Source of the DNA: Ianthella basta
Lineage: Eukaryota > Porifera > Demospongiae > Verongiida > Ianthellidae
Direction of reading: 5' to 3'
NCBI GenBank assembly: GCA_964019415.1
Contig: OZ025869.1
Coordinates: forward strand, 607,501-671,500
Length of the DNA: 64,000 bases
This document shows positions 32,085-55,215 of the stretch, one piece after another. The notes beneath the pieces are model-generated. The model had not been told where the DNA came from. It saw only the letters and a list, made by a program, of their open reading frames with translations, and made no database searches. The first letter of the stretch is position 1, and each line of letters starts with the position of its first letter. The translations under genes and the position numbers were made by a program.

Positions 32085-33440
32085 TCTATGCACACAGCTG
32101 GTGAGTACGCGACTCCTACTGTGCAGCTGTAGTCTACAGAACCTCACCTAGCTACAGCTGTAGAGGTACAACACAACATTCCCAATAACAGTGTAGTCAT
32201 GTTAACTGGTGTCTGCACCTGTTGTGGTAAGGTAAACCATCACCAGAGCAACAACATTCCTTGTCAGTGTCACGTAGCCAGCCACACAGTACATGTGTAG
32301 TGTATAGAGCACCACTGGACACACACAGCACATCATTCAGGACAACATGACTCATGAATTCATCAAACAGCAACCAAACAGTATTGAGCATACACACATA
32401 CACACACTATAGGTACGTATATATTGTCATAGAGCTGGATTTGTCTGTTTGCAAGCCCCTCCTACCATCATGTTGACAATAGTCAGTTGTTCTGCCACAG
32501 CATGACCACATGATTGTGTCTCAGAACATGCACCATGTGTCCACTGAGTCTTAGGACATGTACACCGGTGGAGACTATGCCTCTATCACAATTGCTGTTG
32601 TCCTTATAGCTGGCTAGCTCAACTTATTATATTACTATATTATTCTATTTTTCAGGTACCATTTGTGTCACTGTATGTTGCCCAAGCTGATACTTCACAA
32701 TTGCTTCCCTTTGTATTGTTCATATTGCTGCGTACCCCAGCACACACTCTGCTTGCTGGTCTCCATGCTGCTGTACAGTGTACATAGCTACTGGCATCTC
32801 AGGTATCAATGCATGCTATGCCAGAGAGCAGCCGATGTCAATGCACACATGTACAAGATGCCAGCATGCAACATGCTGCCATATACACTGGCATGTGTCA
32901 AGCTGGCCAGTGATATGAATGAAGGTGATGAGCCACAGGGAAGTCCACCAAAGGCAGGCTTCCCTGTAGTGTGTGTATGCACCAACACACACAAGTACGT
33001 ACACCATGTGAACAAGTATACACATGCATACACTGTGTACTGTTATGCTTGTACATGTAGTACTACTTAGGGTTAACGCTACAGATACAATATGCACATG
33101 GACGTGTTCTATGTGTACACGTCCATGTGCATCCACACTGCTGCACAGTAGTTGGTTGTGCTCCTTGCCCATGTTCGGACACAGGACAGGAACTCATCCA
33201 ATTAGGTTTAAGTCAATTAGTAATCCATTTTGGTAACTGGTCACCCACTGCTCCAGTCTACCCATCCACAGCTGGTCAGTGCTGAGTACATGACTCCTAC
33301 TGTGCAGTTGCAGTCTACAGAGCCTCACCTAGCTACAGCTGTAGAGGTACAACACAACATTCCCAATAACAGTGTAGTCATGTTAACTGGTGACTGCCCC
33401 TGTTGTAGTAAGGTAAACCATCACCATAGCAACAACATTC
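32085..33440. repeat. Dispersed repeat R1, two copies (32085-32290, 33270-33440)
   Basis: Landmarks are GAGTACRTGACTCCTACTGT, CTAGCTACAGCTGTAGAGG, ACATTCCCAATAACAGTGTA and GTCATGTTAACTGGTG. Other copies or parts lie at 48235-48430, 49170-49202 joined to 55048-55215 (split by the big transposon), 56590-56690 and 56755-56830. No coding sequence. Block Y lies between the two copies at 32665-32900. Confidence 0.75.
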
Positions 33441-49196: not shown

Positions 49197-49202
49197 GTGC
49201 TG
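49197..49202. repeat. Left target-site duplication GTGCTG
   Basis: Directly abuts the left end and is identical to 55048-55053. Confidence 0.9.
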
Positions 49203-49530
49203 TATGGGGCGCCGTCTGGGTAAAAACACATCTTGAAAATGGGATCTATAATAATCTGGATATATATTATATATCCAGATGTATACAATATATATCCGGA
49301 TGTATAATTATAGATCCAGATCTATAGTATGCATCCGGATGTATATTATATAACCGGATGCATATTATAGATCCAGATCTATAATTATACATCTGGATGT
49401 ATATTATAGATCCAGATGTATACTATATATAGATCCGGATATATATTATAGATCCGGATGTATAAATTATATATCCGGATGCATACTATAGATCCGGATG
49501 TATATTATACATCCGGATATATAATATATA
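49203..49530. repeat. Left terminal inverted repeat with ATCCGGAT array
   Basis: About 330 bp. The first 100 bases pair almost without mismatch with the right end. The inner part is an array of short palindromic units, GATCCGGATGTATA and relatives, spaced by AT-rich steps. Many units carry CCAG or CTGG in place of CCGG. Similar units continue, imperfectly, to about 49640. Confidence 0.85.
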
Positions 49531-49746
49531 TCTGGATGTATATTATATATCCTGATGTATACTATAGATCCGGATATATAATATACATCCAGATCTGATA
49601 TATAGCTATATATCCAGATATTTAATAAATATCTGAAGATTTATCTCTATACCAGGATATAAAGCTAAATATCCAATATAGTCAGTATTGCCCAATAGCA
49701 TGTGACATGTGATCATACCATGTGATCTATAGAATGCCATATAAGG

Positions 49747-51003
49747 ATGATACTATTCATAGTGACCACATGTTGCTCTGAAATGGCAGAACTTCCAGCT
49801 GATGCAGAAACTGAGCCTGTATGTGGCAGACCACAAGTTGAAGTGGACATGGGAGAAGTGGACAAACTCATCAGGATGGGATTCACAAAAACAAAAATAG
49901 CTGATATCATGGGAATCAGCAGAAAGACTTTGTATACTAAGATCATGGCTGTTCAGCAACAAGGGCCTTCAGGTATTGTCAGCAACAGGTATGTGCAAAT
50001 GACGGATGATGAATTGGACACAAAAGTGAAGTCAATCAAACAGACGCATCCACAATATGGAGAAGTCATGATTGTAGGTCATCTTCGACAAGATGGAATC
50101 CGATTGGCTCGTTCACGCATACGTGCAAGTATTCATCGTGTGGATCCAGACGGTGTTGCAGAAAGACGAAGCAAAGCAGTTAAAAGAAGGGTCTATCAAG
50201 TTGGGTTTCCAAATGATATCTGGCATATTGATGGGAACCACAAGCTTATAAGATGGCGGTTCGTTGTACATGGTGGTATTGATGGTTTCTCTCGCCTAAT
50301 AACATTTCTTGCATGCAATTCCAACAACTGTGCAAAGACTATGCTCAATGCATTTGAGGAGGGCATCCAGAAATGTGGGTGGCCTAGAAAGATTCGCAGT
50401 GACCACGGGGGAGAAAATGTTGATGTATGGCGTTCCATGATGATGGCTCATGGTTCCCAACAATGTGTCATTGTTGGCAGCTCCACCCACAATGAGAGAA
50501 TAGAGAGATTATGGCGAGATGTGCATCGGTCAGTTTTACTAACATTTAGCACTTTGTTTAGAGAATTAGAAAGTAGAGAACACCTAGACCCACTCAATGA
50601 AGTTGATATCTATTGCTTGCAAAAGATTTTCCTACCAATAATAAATGAAAGCCTATCTCAGTTTGCAGCTAGCTGGAATCATCATTCTCTATCAACTGAA
50701 AATATGCAAACACCAATGCAGCTTTTCTACGCAGGCCAACTACAATTGGATGACACTAGTCAGAGCAGCAGTGATTCTGAAGCAGATCACGAGACTGTGA
50801 TTCCCTCTCATGACCCTGTTTCTGTGCCACGTTGCACTTTCAAGCCCTGCCAACTCCTCCTCCAAACTCTCCGTAGCACTACAGATGCTGCTAATTGCAG
50901 TCAAAGTGCAGAGCAAGGCAGTAGACTATACATGCAAGCAACGGACATAGTTGGGCAGCACCTTATGACAAGCTGTCACGCATGCCAGCAAGACTCTGAC
51001 TGA
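49747..51003 (+). CDS. IS3EU-like DDE integrase-type transposase
   Basis: 418 residues in one exon. A helix-turn-helix lies at about 35-66 (VDKLIRMGFTKTKIADIMG, then ISRKTLYTKI). The rve-type catalytic core spans about 150-265 with DDE residues D162 (WHIDGNHKLIRW), D219 (IRSDHGGENVDVW) and E253 (NERIERLWRDVHRS). A Ser/Asp-rich tail follows. This matches the animal stand-alone integrase-core proteins often annotated as integrase catalytic domain-containing. The likely role is cutting and joining the element's own ends. A second ATG at 49783 (MAELPADAE) would be an alternative start and removes an uninformative hydrophobic leader. No stop or frameshift is seen. Confidence 0.9.
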   Translation: MILFIVTTCCSEMAELPADAETEPVCGRPQVEVDMGEVDKLIRMGFTKTKIADIMGISRKTLYTKIMAVQQQGPSGIVSNRYVQMTDDELDTKVKSIKQTHPQYGEVMIVGHLRQDGIRLARSRIRASIHRVDPDGVAERRSKAVKRRVYQVGFPNDIWHIDGNHKLIRWRFVVHGGIDGFSRLITFLACNSNNCAKTMLNAFEEGIQKCGWPRKIRSDHGGENVDVWRSMMMAHGSQQCVIVGSSTHNERIERLWRDVHRSVLLTFSTLFRELESREHLDPLNEVDIYCLQKIFLPIINESLSQFAASWNHHSLSTENMQTPMQLFYAGQLQLDDTSQSSSDSEADHETVIPSHDPVSVPRCTFKPCQLLLQTLRSTTDAANCSQSAEQGSRLYMQATDIVGQHLMTSCHACQQDSD

Positions 51004-51258
51004 TTGTAGCTCTAGCTAGCTAACACTCTATAGGAGTTGCATGTTGTGTTTTGATTTTATAAGCTGTATCCCTAATGTGATGCATTCCTTCAAATTCATG
51101 TCACCCTTTACAGTTCTTTGAGTATCTAAGCTGTTCAAAGGTGCTAATGCGCAAAGATATGCCAAATACCTTTGATGGACTTCTGAAACTCAGAAACACG
51201 AATCTCATGAGCATGTGGCAAATGGTCTATGTACGCAGCAGTTCAGCACTTTTTTTGA

Positions 51259-51392
51259 GCAATTAATGCGACGTAGGTACCATAATATGGTAAACTATTG
51301 CGCAAACGCAACGTACCAAAAACTATTGTGCAATTAATGGGACGTAGATACCATATCTGGTAAACTATTGCGCAAACACAACGTACCAAATA
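51259..51392. repeat. 71-bp tandem pair inside the transposon
   Basis: Two units beginning GCAATTAATG and sharing GGTAAACTATTGCGCAAAC lie between the two convergent genes, where transcripts would end. Confidence 0.75.
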
Positions 51393-51497
51393 TCCAGTTT
51401 CACCACGCCCAGACAAGAGGGGCTTCGCTTCGCTCGCCCTAATTATATCATCACGTACTACATGCATACAGTCTAAGTTGTGTGTGAATATTGCAGT

Positions 51498-54400
51498 CTA
51501 CAGCTGGCCAAAGCCAACTGTGTTTAGAATGGCCATATCCATTCTTTCCTTGAAAGTGTCATAGTCATAATCGGGGCCACCTGCAGGATCACAGTTGACA
51601 TTCTGGCGTAGTGGCAGAAAGAGGGTACATGCACAGGTGGAGGCTGTTGGCAAAGTCCCATGGGCAGTAAATCTGATTGATGGCTGTTGAACAAAGCCCA
51701 TTGGGGGCGGCAGCTGAGCCCCGTCACAAAGGCCAACAACTTGGCTGGAGTTACAGCAGCATCAGATTCTTCCTGCTCTGTATAAGGGAAGTCACATAAG
51801 GCGAATTAAGTACATTCTTTTAGAGTTCCTAAATTCTCTTGCATTCACATCCATACCTTCCATGTCTTGAATGTAATCACTCCAGGCAAGTAATACTGCC
51901 TCCTCTTTCTCTCTCTGATTGTGTCCGTGTGGTGATAGAACTGGGGACAGCAAGCGTGACAGATACTGAGCTGTTACACGTGCCTCAGAAGGGTCATTCA
52001 CAAATAGCTTCCTTAAGCATCGTGGATGGCGCCTTAGCAGTGTGGCAATTTGAAGAGTTTCCAGCCCCTCAATAAACTGGGAAATCTCCTGTGTTGTCTT
52101 GAATACTATGTGCTCCAGGAAAGCTGCTTTGATTATGGCTGGAATGTCTGCTTTTGTCACTTTCATTGCTGGCTTAATAAAGCCGGATTCTGCAACAAAA
52201 GCGAACTTAGCCTCGCACAGCATGTCCTGCAGTTCGCCATCACTAGGGCTGGCTTGGATCTGTATGTGATACATTGATGCAAATGCACGAGATGGCATAT
52301 ACAACACGTACAGAGTGCTGCAATAAAGATGACGTTTTACTGTAACTTATACTAAACCTCACCTGTTGCAAGCACTCCTGTAGGTTGGAATCAGGAAGTA
52401 GACTTAGATCTGGAGCAAAGTCGCCATGAAGGCCGAAACAAAGATATGTGTACAGAGCCTCAGCAAGACATGGGAGTCCAGGTCCACCATTTGCAAGTGA
52501 AATAGCAACAAGCATGCCAGCATAAAAGTATTTCTTGCTGGCAAGAGCTTGTACATTGTGCAGAAAATAACGGCTGTGAGGAGGACCCTGAAAAACATTT
52601 CCATCTTCTGCCATTTCCTGTAGTGCCAATGTGAAAAACTCTCGCCTAGGCCCTCCACCATCTACAGCCTCCTCCCCAATAAATGTGACGTGCACACTTT
52701 TGTTGGGGTTAAAGGCAGTGCGTGAGATGGCTCGAATTGCATCTCTCCAGATATGCTTACGGCGAATTGTGATACTGCCTACGTCATCCGGATCTTGAAT
52801 GATCACTTTATCAAAATGTGCCTTCAGTATCATTGCAATAGATTCCGATGTGTTGTCCTCCCTACATACATATATGCATAAGAACAAGACAGCACCCATG
52901 CATGCATGCACACATTCATGCAATTGTATAATTATCTGTTACTCATGCTCGGCGTATGCCAGCTGGTCGGACACACACTGGCAATGCCATTGCTACTCAG
53001 GCCCCAGCTAGTAATGCACTGGCTGGTCATGCATGCTCTGGCAAAGGATAGCTAGTCCAGGCTGGCCTGGTGATTTGAAATCTGCACTCGATCACGTGGC
53101 ACGTGATAAATGAGCGTCACGATTCGTCATTTTGTATTCAAAATTTGAATTGCCTGAGCATTCTTTGTACACTGAGAGTGCTCACGCAATTTGAATTTCG
53201 AATACGAAATGACGAATCGTGATACTCATTTATCACGTGCCACGTGATCAAGTGCAGACTTCAAATCGCGATCGGGACAAGGAACCTCGAAAGCACTGTA
53301 CTACTACAGTAAATAATAAAATGCTAACCTGTTGGTTTCCAATAAACTTGCTTCGATTACAGACTGCAATTCTGCAACTGCCTGAACTGTCTTCTCCAAG
53401 CAGGCTGATGTATTCCCTGCATGATACAGAGTAACTCTATAGCTATATATGTACTAATGCATGTGGTCACAGGGGGAAAACATGCATATGCCCACAGGTA
53501 TATGAACATGTGCATGCATCCACCATAACTGACTTACGCATGCATAGTTCTGCTGCTAGTTTGACGCCTTTCGCTTCTAGGACTTGGATTGTGACTGGTA
53601 GCTGGCGTATCTTGTTGTACCAAGTCGTCAGGATTAAAGCTGTAGAATACTTCTACCTGCTCTGGATCACTGCTGTTTTCTCTGTATATTATATAAGGTT
53701 GGAGGTATGCGCGTAACATATACATGAACCGAGCACAAAATATTAACAGTATACAATTAGAATTATTATAGTCATTCAGACATCCATTTATTTAGTTGCA
53801 TGCAGTCATGAATAGTTAGCTATATATGTGGACACGTACCGCCAACTGCTTCCTTCCTTGCTTTCTTCACAATCATCTTCCACAATGTCAGGAGTGTTGG
53901 TTTGCTTTTCTGCTAGAATGTACACGGCACCTTTTCCTGCTGAGGACACCAATTCCTTGGCTGTCCACTGGAAGGTTGGCGATGTGCATGGGACAGTCAG
54001 GCACCGTGATCCACCCCCTATTGTCTGAAGAAACTTGAAAGGGAAGGTTTTTTCTTCATGAAATGCCACGTTGAAGACAGAGCAAATCTCTGCTCTCATG
54101 TCTGACTCTGACATATCTGATGACAGTAGCACCTTGCCTATCAACCCTGCTTTGGCAAGTTGGGCTCTACTGTTTCCCCTGGGAATGGGCAGCTCCTGAC
54201 TTCTGCTGTGATAGTCAGCTGGCAGACAAACTATATCCTTTGACCAGGTCTTCACTGCCACCTTCTTCTGTTTCCCTTTGTCCTTCCTCAAAAATCTAGA
54301 TGGTAGTGGGCAGCTGGGTCTCTTCTTTTTCTTACAGGGCTCTTCTTCTCCACTGTTATCCCTTCCTCGTGAGGAACACAGTAAATCTTGGCTTCTGACA

Positions 54401-54528
54401 GCTGCAGTCACCGCCGAGGTCAGAGATGTCACAGTGTTGGTGATAATATCTCTGATGCACTCAGGATCCATTGCTGTTGAGACCATGTACTCAGACCATG
54501 TGCTCAGACCACTCAGCTGCAGGTTCAC
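51498..54528 (-). CDS. HECT-domain E3 ubiquitin ligase carried by the transposon (one frameshift)
   Basis: A spliced gene running against the transposase. Likely exons: 54528-53840, 53681-53538, one near 53416-53329, 52861-52363, 52317 to about 51800, and 51777-51498. Some inner junctions are not phase-proven. The first exon has a Lys-rich patch (CKKKKRPSCPLPSR) and a domain ending AVYILAEKQ. The fourth holds the HECT N-lobe (VTFIGEEAVDGGGPRREFFT, then KKYFYAGMLVAISLANGGPG). The last holds the C-lobe with the catalytic Cys in LPTASTCACTLFLPL and the GFGQL end. One base appears lost near 51717-51722, just before the LPPPMGF motif. The layout recalls G2/M-phase-specific E3-like proteins of animals. 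A role in ubiquitin tagging of host or transposon proteins is inference. Confidence 0.75.
53072..53267. mobile_element. Foldback (MITE-like) element inside the HECT gene
   Basis: Two arms of about 85 bp pair closely: GATTTGAAATCTGCACTCGA at the left and its near complement ending at 53267, both passing through CACGTGGCACGTGATAAATG and ACGATTCGTCATTT. The loop is about 25 bp. It lies between the third and fourth exons of the HECT gene, so it is probably intronic. No clear target duplication is seen. Confidence 0.75.
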
Positions 54529-54565
54529 TAAGGACTGCCATGCAGCTGCAGAGCCTTCCTGTTAT

Positions 54566-54602
54566 TGGTAATTGTTTACATTGTGGTTGGTATGTAAACA
54601 AT
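54566..54602. repeat. Small hairpin upstream of the HECT gene
   Basis: AATTGTTTACAT pairs perfectly with ATGTAAACAATT across a 10-bp loop, just inside the right terminal repeat and upstream of the HECT start. It may be a regulatory or transposase-related site. Confidence 0.6.
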
Positions 54603-54712
54603 TGCTTCCTGTTACGTAATCATGTGCCTATACCCCCACTTAGACCATGATGCAACACATTGCTGTAATCTGATTGGTCCAACGGAGGTCTTCTAAATCT
54701 TATACCACCTTT

Positions 54713-55047
54713 ATATATCTGGATCTATAGTATACATTCGGATATATAATTTATACATCCGGATCTATAGTATACATCCGGATCTATAATATATATCCGG
54801 ATCTATAGTATACATCCGGATATATAATATACATCCAGATGTATAATTATAGATCTGGATCTATAATATACATCCGGATCTATAGTATACATCCGGTTAT
54901 ATAATATACATCCGAATGTATACTATAGATCTGGATCTATAATTATACATCCGGATGTATATTGTATACATCTGGATATATAATATATATCCAGATTATT
55001 ATAGATCCCATTTTCAAGATGTGTTTTTACCCAGACGGCGCCCCATA
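54713..55047. repeat. Right terminal inverted repeat with ATCCGGAT array
   Basis: Complement of the left repeat. It shows the same order of unit types over most of its length, with scattered substitutions and length changes in the AT spacers. Confidence 0.85.
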
Positions 55048-55215
55048 GTGCTGAGTACGTGACTCCTACTGTGCAGCTGTAGTCTACAGCTGTAGAGGTA
55101 CAACACAACATTCCCAATAACAGTGTAGTCATGTTAACTGGTGCCTGCCCCCTGTGGTAGTAAGGCAAATGGTCGTGACTACTACAACATTCCTTGTCAG
55201 TGTCACGTAATCACA
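55048..55215. repeat. Right target-site duplication and rest of repeat R1
   Basis: GTGCTG is followed by AGTACGTGACTCCTACTGTG, the continuation of R1 that is interrupted at 49202. Confidence 0.85.

Follow-up and report, generated by a model that had tools for sequence, protein, structure and literature searches.

An IS3EU-Type DNA Transposon from the Sponge Ianthella basta with a Predicted HECT Ubiquitin Ligase Gene

A 64,000-nucleotide stretch of the Ianthella basta genome (assembly GCA_964019415.1, contig OZ025869.1, positions 607,501 to 671,500; the window hereafter) contains an IS3EU-type DNA transposon that is bounded by inverted repeats and a 6-bp target-site duplication. The element carries two genes. 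The first encodes a DDE transposase on the plus strand. The second is a six-exon gene on the minus strand that occupies the other half of the element, is convergent with the transposase gene, and is predicted to encode a HECT E3 ubiquitin ligase.

The Element and Its Two Genes

The ends of the element and its insertion site are as follows (window coordinates throughout).

49203..55047, unstranded: whole IS3EU-type element of 5,845 bp, defined by its ends, the duplication and the paired termini
49197..49202, unstranded: left target-site duplication, GTGCTG, from flank comparison
55048..55053, unstranded: right target-site duplication, GTGCTG, from flank comparison
49203..49292, plus strand: left perfect terminal inverted repeat of 90 bp, which starts TATGGGGCGCCG
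54958..55047, minus strand: right perfect terminal inverted repeat of 90 bp
49203..49672, unstranded: left outer 470 bp with an array of 17 ATC[CT][AG]GAT palindromes, mostly 19-21 bp apart
54708..55047, unstranded: right outer 340 bp with an array of 12 ATC[CT][AG]GAT palindromes
33191..33400, plus strand: paralogous empty site in the same host repeat, with an unbroken GTGCTG at 33279-33284

The outer 181 bp of the two ends pair at 96%, and farther inward the arms consist of subterminal, AT-rich arrays in which the palindromic octamer ATC[CT][AG]GAT is repeated. This octamer is found 29 times in the outer 810 bp of the element, twice in the inner 5,035 bp, and three times in the 58,155 bp of the window outside the element. 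The arrays are candidate binding sites for the transposase, and such binding is probable.

When the two flanks of the element were fused through a single GTGCTG, the joined sequence was found to be 83% identical to 33191-33400 and continuous across the site. The empty site at 33279-33284 is paralogous, not allelic, and lies within a local host repeat. Long direct repeats (at least 300 bp) occur many times along the window (for example, at 2914, 19816, 29323, and 44296) with spacings of approximately 9.5, 12.5, 15, and 17 kb. This pattern resembles that of a tandemly duplicated gene cluster, and the empty site sits in this duplicated background.

The transposase gene is a single open reading frame.

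49783..51003, plus strand: intact transposase of 406 amino acids (418 from an upstream ATG at 49747), with a helix-turn-helix and an rva_4 integrase core

The DDE triad is formed by D150, D207, and E238 (codons at 50230, 50401, and 50494), with spacings of 56 and 30 residues. The protein matches rva_4 with an E value of 4.8e-74, whereas the generic rve model reaches only 28.5 bits. Among the NCBIfam models the scores were 74 bits for IS481, 43 for IS3, and 31 for ISNCY, all of which are under the cut-off. No HHCC pattern was found N-terminal to the core, in residues 1-149. IS3EU elements are described as having TA..TA termini, usually 6-bp duplications, and an IS3/IS481-related DDE transposase that lacks HHCC, according to the available part of that account (PMC10045372), and the accessible part of a report on fungal members gives TAYGG..CCRTA ends with 6-bp duplications (PMC12730594). 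The element in the window terminates in TATGGGGCGCC..GGCGCCCCATA, that is, TATGG..CCATA; its family makes 6-bp duplications, and its DDE transposase is related to those of IS3 and IS481 and has no HHCC. By the termini, duplication, and transposase features tested, the element is a member of IS3EU.

The exons of the second gene are listed next, with their differences from the only other full-length copy of the family (C1:9745143-9751958, the C1 copy).

53840..54486, minus strand: exon A, N-terminal domain (N-domain), putative ubiquitin-like beta-grasp; open, with no assigned start codon
53538..53681, minus strand: exon B, open; boundary set to fit a GT donor
53329..53416, minus strand: exon C, carrying a UIM-like motif; it lacks 14 bp that the C1 copy has, which shifts the frame; acceptor taken from the open C1 copy
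52363..52861, minus strand: exon D, HECT N-lobe; open
51857..52259, minus strand: exon E, HECT; open
51498..51777, minus strand: exon F, HECT C-lobe including the TASTC cysteine; it lacks one base that the C1 copy has, which shifts the frame
53072..53267, unstranded: fold-back repeat of 196 bp in the C-D intron, with 93-bp arms that are 89% complementary; also present in the C1 copy

The exon borders carry splice signals in both copies. A first splice model of exon C, with a non-GT donor and an inner acceptor, left the frame in the window seemingly open and was rejected from the C1 copy. The fold-back repeat is found in both copies and therefore predates their separation.

The protein spliced from exons C to F of the C1 copy matches PF00632 (HECT) with an E value of 3.4e-11 and a score of 43.8 bits, against a curated cut-off of 23.9. 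Solved HECT ligases are matched by sequence, for example AREL1 with an E value of 5e-8. A homologue, P0001, rather than the window protein itself, was assigned a HECT fold with a predicted local distance difference test score of 85.7 and a best PDB match at an E value of 2.3e-14. The catalytic-cysteine motif, PTASTCACTLFLP, is encoded in both copies, and in the window it is reached only past the frame shift. The cysteine motif reads ASTC in the window family and PTASTC in three other families, represented by L076/L049, L078, and L055. The UIM-like motif in exon C reached a Pfam E value of 0.14 at best, and a Foldseek search with the N-domain returned no match at E <= 0.001. The second gene is predicted to encode a HECT E3 ubiquitin ligase that has a UIM-like motif and, at its N terminus, a putative ubiquitin-like domain.

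An earlier note, made from the DNA letters of the window alone, had described a complete, apparently autonomous IS3EU-like element whose ends pair perfectly over 20 bases, with GTGCTG duplicated on either side, a DDE transposase that is intact, and an empty site in the same window. The type assignment, the duplication on both sides of 49203-55047, the open transposase with its triad, and the empty site all hold. The terminal pairing is perfect and, at 90 bp, longer than had been described. The element is complete at both ends and its transposase is intact, but the second gene is frameshifted, and the description as apparently autonomous applies to the transposase alone; the note had recognized the transposase and missed the minus-strand HECT gene.

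Copies of the Element and the Pairing of Its Genes

An 84-bp query from the element end was searched against the source genome (209 Mb, 96 contigs) and gave 80 matches, many of them to internal repeats. By our count these matches correspond to 23 loci, and 21 were analyzed (the window copy and 20 others; C73:5781 and C13:4074097 were excluded). With a filter of five mismatches, both ends were retained at 11 of these loci, one end at 7, and neither at 3. Identical 6-bp flanks were found in 10 of the 11 two-ended copies, and in the eleventh (L058) the flanks agree once shifted by one base. The ten perfect duplications are listed below.

Window copy, GTGCTG; C1 copy, GTAAAC; L057, GTTGTC; L059, CTCTCC; L060, TTCTGG
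L061, CTGTCT; L062, ACAGGG; L063, TGTACC; L064, GTTGTG; L067, TGCCTG

A chance inverted repeat was ruled out as the source of the ends, because other genomic copies share both these ends and the duplications. The search for further copies with the same termini, which the earlier note had proposed as a check, was therefore positive. Its description of the insertion as recent is in accord with the C1 copy, which is 97.9% identical to the window copy over 5,812 aligned bases.

The nine other copies with both ends are short, with lengths from 326 to 3,132 bp. Six of these (L059-L063 and L067) are 81-96% identical to one another where blocks longer than 500 bp were compared, and their termini are nearly identical to those of the window element. 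Their transposase is truncated, with broken frames and 44-63% protein identity to that of the window copy, and no HECT or N-domain match was found in them. These six copies resemble a non-autonomous subfamily in which common ends surround a diverged interior, and they were possibly cross-mobilized through those ends.

In the C1 copy (L056), exons B to F are open, exon A has a frame shift and a stop, and the transposase is interrupted by an insertion of 881 bp that terminates in a GATT microsatellite. The possibility that this stretch is an intron was rejected, since by eye it encodes a peptide resembling a reverse transcriptase. A database protein, P0013, is 97% identical to the transposase over 72% of its length and combines rva_4 with PF00078. 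In the window copy, the transposase and exons A, B, D, and E are open, and the HECT frame is shifted twice relative to the C1 copy, by the loss of 14 bp in exon C and of one base in exon F. Between the two copies the transposase differs by 9 nonsynonymous and 7 synonymous changes (nonsynonymous rate, dN, 0.0094; synonymous rate, dS, 0.0275; dN/dS about 0.34), and exons A, D, and E of the HECT gene, pooled, differ by 6 nonsynonymous and 8 synonymous changes. These counts, although small, suggest that both genes were constrained until recently. Over 120 codons of exon D, a related copy at C2:6308918, for which the nearest rva_4 match is 14 kb away, gave a dN of 0.17 with dS saturated and 87 of 120 residues identical.

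The genome was searched with two pieces of the HECT region, the N-domain, and the rva_4 family; the resulting counts are lower bounds. At least 102 matches to rva_4, merged into 72 loci, were found in the source genome, and none of the 14 control genomes gave a match. The HECT and N-domain matches were merged into 37 loci, and 24 of them lie within 10 kb of rva_4. Conversely, a HECT or N-domain match within 10 kb was found for 18 of the 22 full-length rva_4 loci (profile positions 2-187 or more), in every case at 2.2 kb or less, and for 24 of all 72 merged rva_4 loci. With the window family set aside, a binomial calculation for uniform placement gives 4e-39 for 22 of 35 loci; copies of the same family are not independent, and this value therefore shows only that chance is excluded.

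The 24 linked loci fall into approximately 12 groups by spacing, which is our own grouping and not one based on alignment: the window family with two loci, the family of L076 with six, two sets of four, and eight singles. Relative to the window element, the HECT pieces of L076, L077, and L078 are 24-46% identical and their transposases 43-49%. The gene orientation is convergent in the window family, at C14:1976549 and C2:4183115, and in the two four-copy sets. At L085, from one of these sets, a HECT N-lobe match lies between the N-domain and C-lobe matches. One locus, L038 (C7:3559144-3562470), has N-domain and HECT matches with no rva_4 match within 180 kb, and is possibly a remnant or a host-resident descendant. 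The full-length rva_4 loci at C1:15716720, C19:4470314, C19:4563699, and C12:438648 have no detected HECT or N-domain match nearby; a different accessory gene, or a HECT gene that has diverged further, may be present there.

A second two-gene family was delimited in the same way. Its termini, TATGGGGTGCC..GGCACCCCATA, are of the TA..TA form, and an 89-bp end that starts TATGGGGTGCC flanks six loci on both sides; these loci are 7.7 to 12.6 kb long.

C21:6137858-6145787 (with one extra such end inside), C7:3189108-3196843, C7:7308825-7316559
C3:5099145-5111761, C2:12196634-12205358, C2:7877512-7885292

The rva_4, N-domain, and HECT matches are enclosed by the termini in all six copies; L076 and L049 both denote one place in this family. 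On the HECT side, each of five copies has 99.3 to 99.4% identity to the sixth. Perfect 6-bp duplications were found at three of the six (TTTGTA, TGAGAT, and AAGGGG); of the other three copies, one has a single mismatch among the six bases, another has flanks that are displaced by one base, and the C3 copy shows no duplication. The transposase and HECT genes are co-directional in this family, whereas they are convergent in the window family.

Interpretation and Alternative Explanations

The element in the window is very probably an IS3EU-type transposon that moves by cut and paste and was active recently, and its termini enclose two convergent genes, one for the transposase and the other for a HECT E3 ligase. 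The sequence shows that the two genes are enclosed by the termini, that the transposase is undamaged, that a 6-bp duplication marks the insertion, and that a related second gene stands beside most of the full-length transposases of this type detected in the genome. Several observations weigh against this conclusion. In neither full-length copy of the window family are both genes intact, since the HECT gene is frameshifted in the window and exon A and the transposase are disrupted in the C1 copy. The exon structure is a prediction from splice signals and the comparison of copies, and the substitution counts are small. Termini around both genes are demonstrated in two families only. No HECT or N-domain match lies within 10 kb of 4 of the 22 full-length and 48 of the 72 merged rva_4 loci, many of the 72 being fragments, and at C17:1863530 the N-domain alone was matched. 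Of the 37 HECT/N-domain loci, a count that covers matches to the two HECT pieces and the N-domain, 13 lie away from rva_4. Among the 120 protein matches listed for the fish search described below, 115 are without PF24764, and the five that have it are gene-model predictions from one species.

The damaged HECT genes of both full-length copies and the 13 unlinked loci would also be expected if this one element had picked up the HECT gene from the host as neutral cargo, or had grown into a gene older than itself, and the gene played no part in the transposon. This explanation is unlikely. A HECT or N-domain match lies beside 18 of the 22 full-length transposases, the families that share the arrangement are deeply diverged (L076, L077, and L078), and the same pairing is found in gene models of one fish. 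The pairing across diverged families and in the fish gene models is therefore not explained by a single random capture. Assignment to Ginger1 or Ginger2, other integrase-like superfamilies, would agree with the integrase core and with the weak similarity of the transposase to a retroviral integrase (E 0.0045), and is less likely still. Ginger1 has an HHCC zinc-binding domain and a 4-bp duplication and Ginger2 a duplication of 4-5 bp, as given in the available part of PMC10045372, whereas the window element has no HHCC N-terminal to the core, TA..TA ends, and 6-bp duplications, and the IS481 and IS3 models outscore rve. It would be most surprising if the element were a plain transposase-only IS3EU whose minus-strand exons were frames open by chance or parts of an unrelated nested element. 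The earlier note had recognized only a transposase, and the two unspliced open reading frames that contain exons D and E have, on their own, no HECT match in Pfam. Against this, the joined exons score for HECT over the curated cut-off, both copies have splice signals where the exons begin and end, and the 98% identical C1 copy holds the same gene within the same ends.

For the two-gene transposon that we favor, the transposase would bind the subterminal palindrome arrays, excise the element, and then insert it with a 6-bp stagger. The ligase would be an accessory protein that is kept because it improves the survival or the transposition of the element; it would most likely ubiquitylate a host factor that limits the element, or tune the level of the transposase. 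The window copy, because its own ligase gene is damaged, would either rely on a ligase from another source or do without one. The transposition half of this model is based on the termini, the duplications, the empty site, and the intact transposase, and the ligase half on conservation and linkage. Taking the TET/JBP genes that fungal IS3EU elements carry (PMC12730594) as an analogy, we tentatively suggest that the ligase may counter host limits on the element.

A broader proposal is plausible, although we would stop short of calling it probable. HECT may be an ancient, standard second gene of animal IS3EU elements, in the source genome and in fish, and many of the multicopy genes annotated as "G2/M phase-specific E3 ligase-like" may be transposon genes or their descendants. 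The ligase would then remove host proteins that silence or block the element and would be the ubiquitin counterpart of the fungal TET enzymes. If a ubiquitin ligase has indeed been kept across diverged families, these transposons would manipulate host protein turnover, and the multicopy G2E3-like genes in animal annotations would merit re-examination as mobile-element genes or possible domesticates. The source genome has young families, one of them with six closely similar two-gene copies, and is suited to testing this idea.

Comparison with Known Systems

To our knowledge, accessory enzymes are uncommon in eukaryotic DNA transposons. A recent example is provided by fungal IS3EU elements with TET/JBP and alpha-kinase genes, as described in the accessible part of PMC12730594. 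A search of the literature by title and the start of the abstract returned no HECT ligase inside a DNA transposon; Repbase entries, subscription papers, and the original GingerRoot report lay outside its coverage and may mention one. By the literature covered, the HECT ligase gene would be a new feature for an IS3EU-type element.

The window element has in common with the published IS3EU elements the TA..TA termini, the 6-bp duplications, and an IS3/IS481-related DDE transposase with no HHCC; the available part of PMC10045372 never mentions HECT or ubiquitin, whereas the window element has a HECT gene. GingerRoot of Selaginella, as summarized in that part of PMC10045372, mostly has TA..TA ends and 6-bp duplications, and it is not separated from IS3EU in the published tree. 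The fungal elements that carry TET genes are like the window element in their TAYGG..CCRTA ends, 6-bp duplications, and possession of accessory genes, and their alpha-kinase gene runs opposite to the transposase, as does the HECT gene here. Their accessory genes encode a TET/JBP dioxygenase and an alpha-kinase, and HECT and ubiquitin are unmentioned in the accessible part of that report (PMC12730594).

Relatives of the transposase numbered 1,810 at E <= 0.001; in viral contigs, 36 pattern matches to such relatives were obtained and none was confirmed. Of 7,996 proteins scored with the HECT query, 10 matched at E <= 0.001, and fish and sea-star HECT proteins were among them. When the HECT part of P0007 was used as the query, 127 proteins were matched, and the best 120, which were listed, are mostly fish by name, many of them "G2/M phase-specific E3 ligase-like". 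Among these 120, PF24764 and PF00632 occur together in at least three gene models of Triplophysa tibetana (P0007, P0131, and P0138), and two more from this species (P0229 and P0244) combine PF24764 with a match to a section of the HECT query. The G2/M phase-specific E3 ubiquitin-protein ligase-like proteins of fish and other animals have a HECT domain with a TC cysteine motif and are 28-33% identical to P0001. By eye, one of them, P0177 of Myripristis, appears to have an N-terminal domain in common with the HECT protein of the element. These proteins are annotated as products of ordinary genes, whereas the HECT gene in the window lies inside a transposon.

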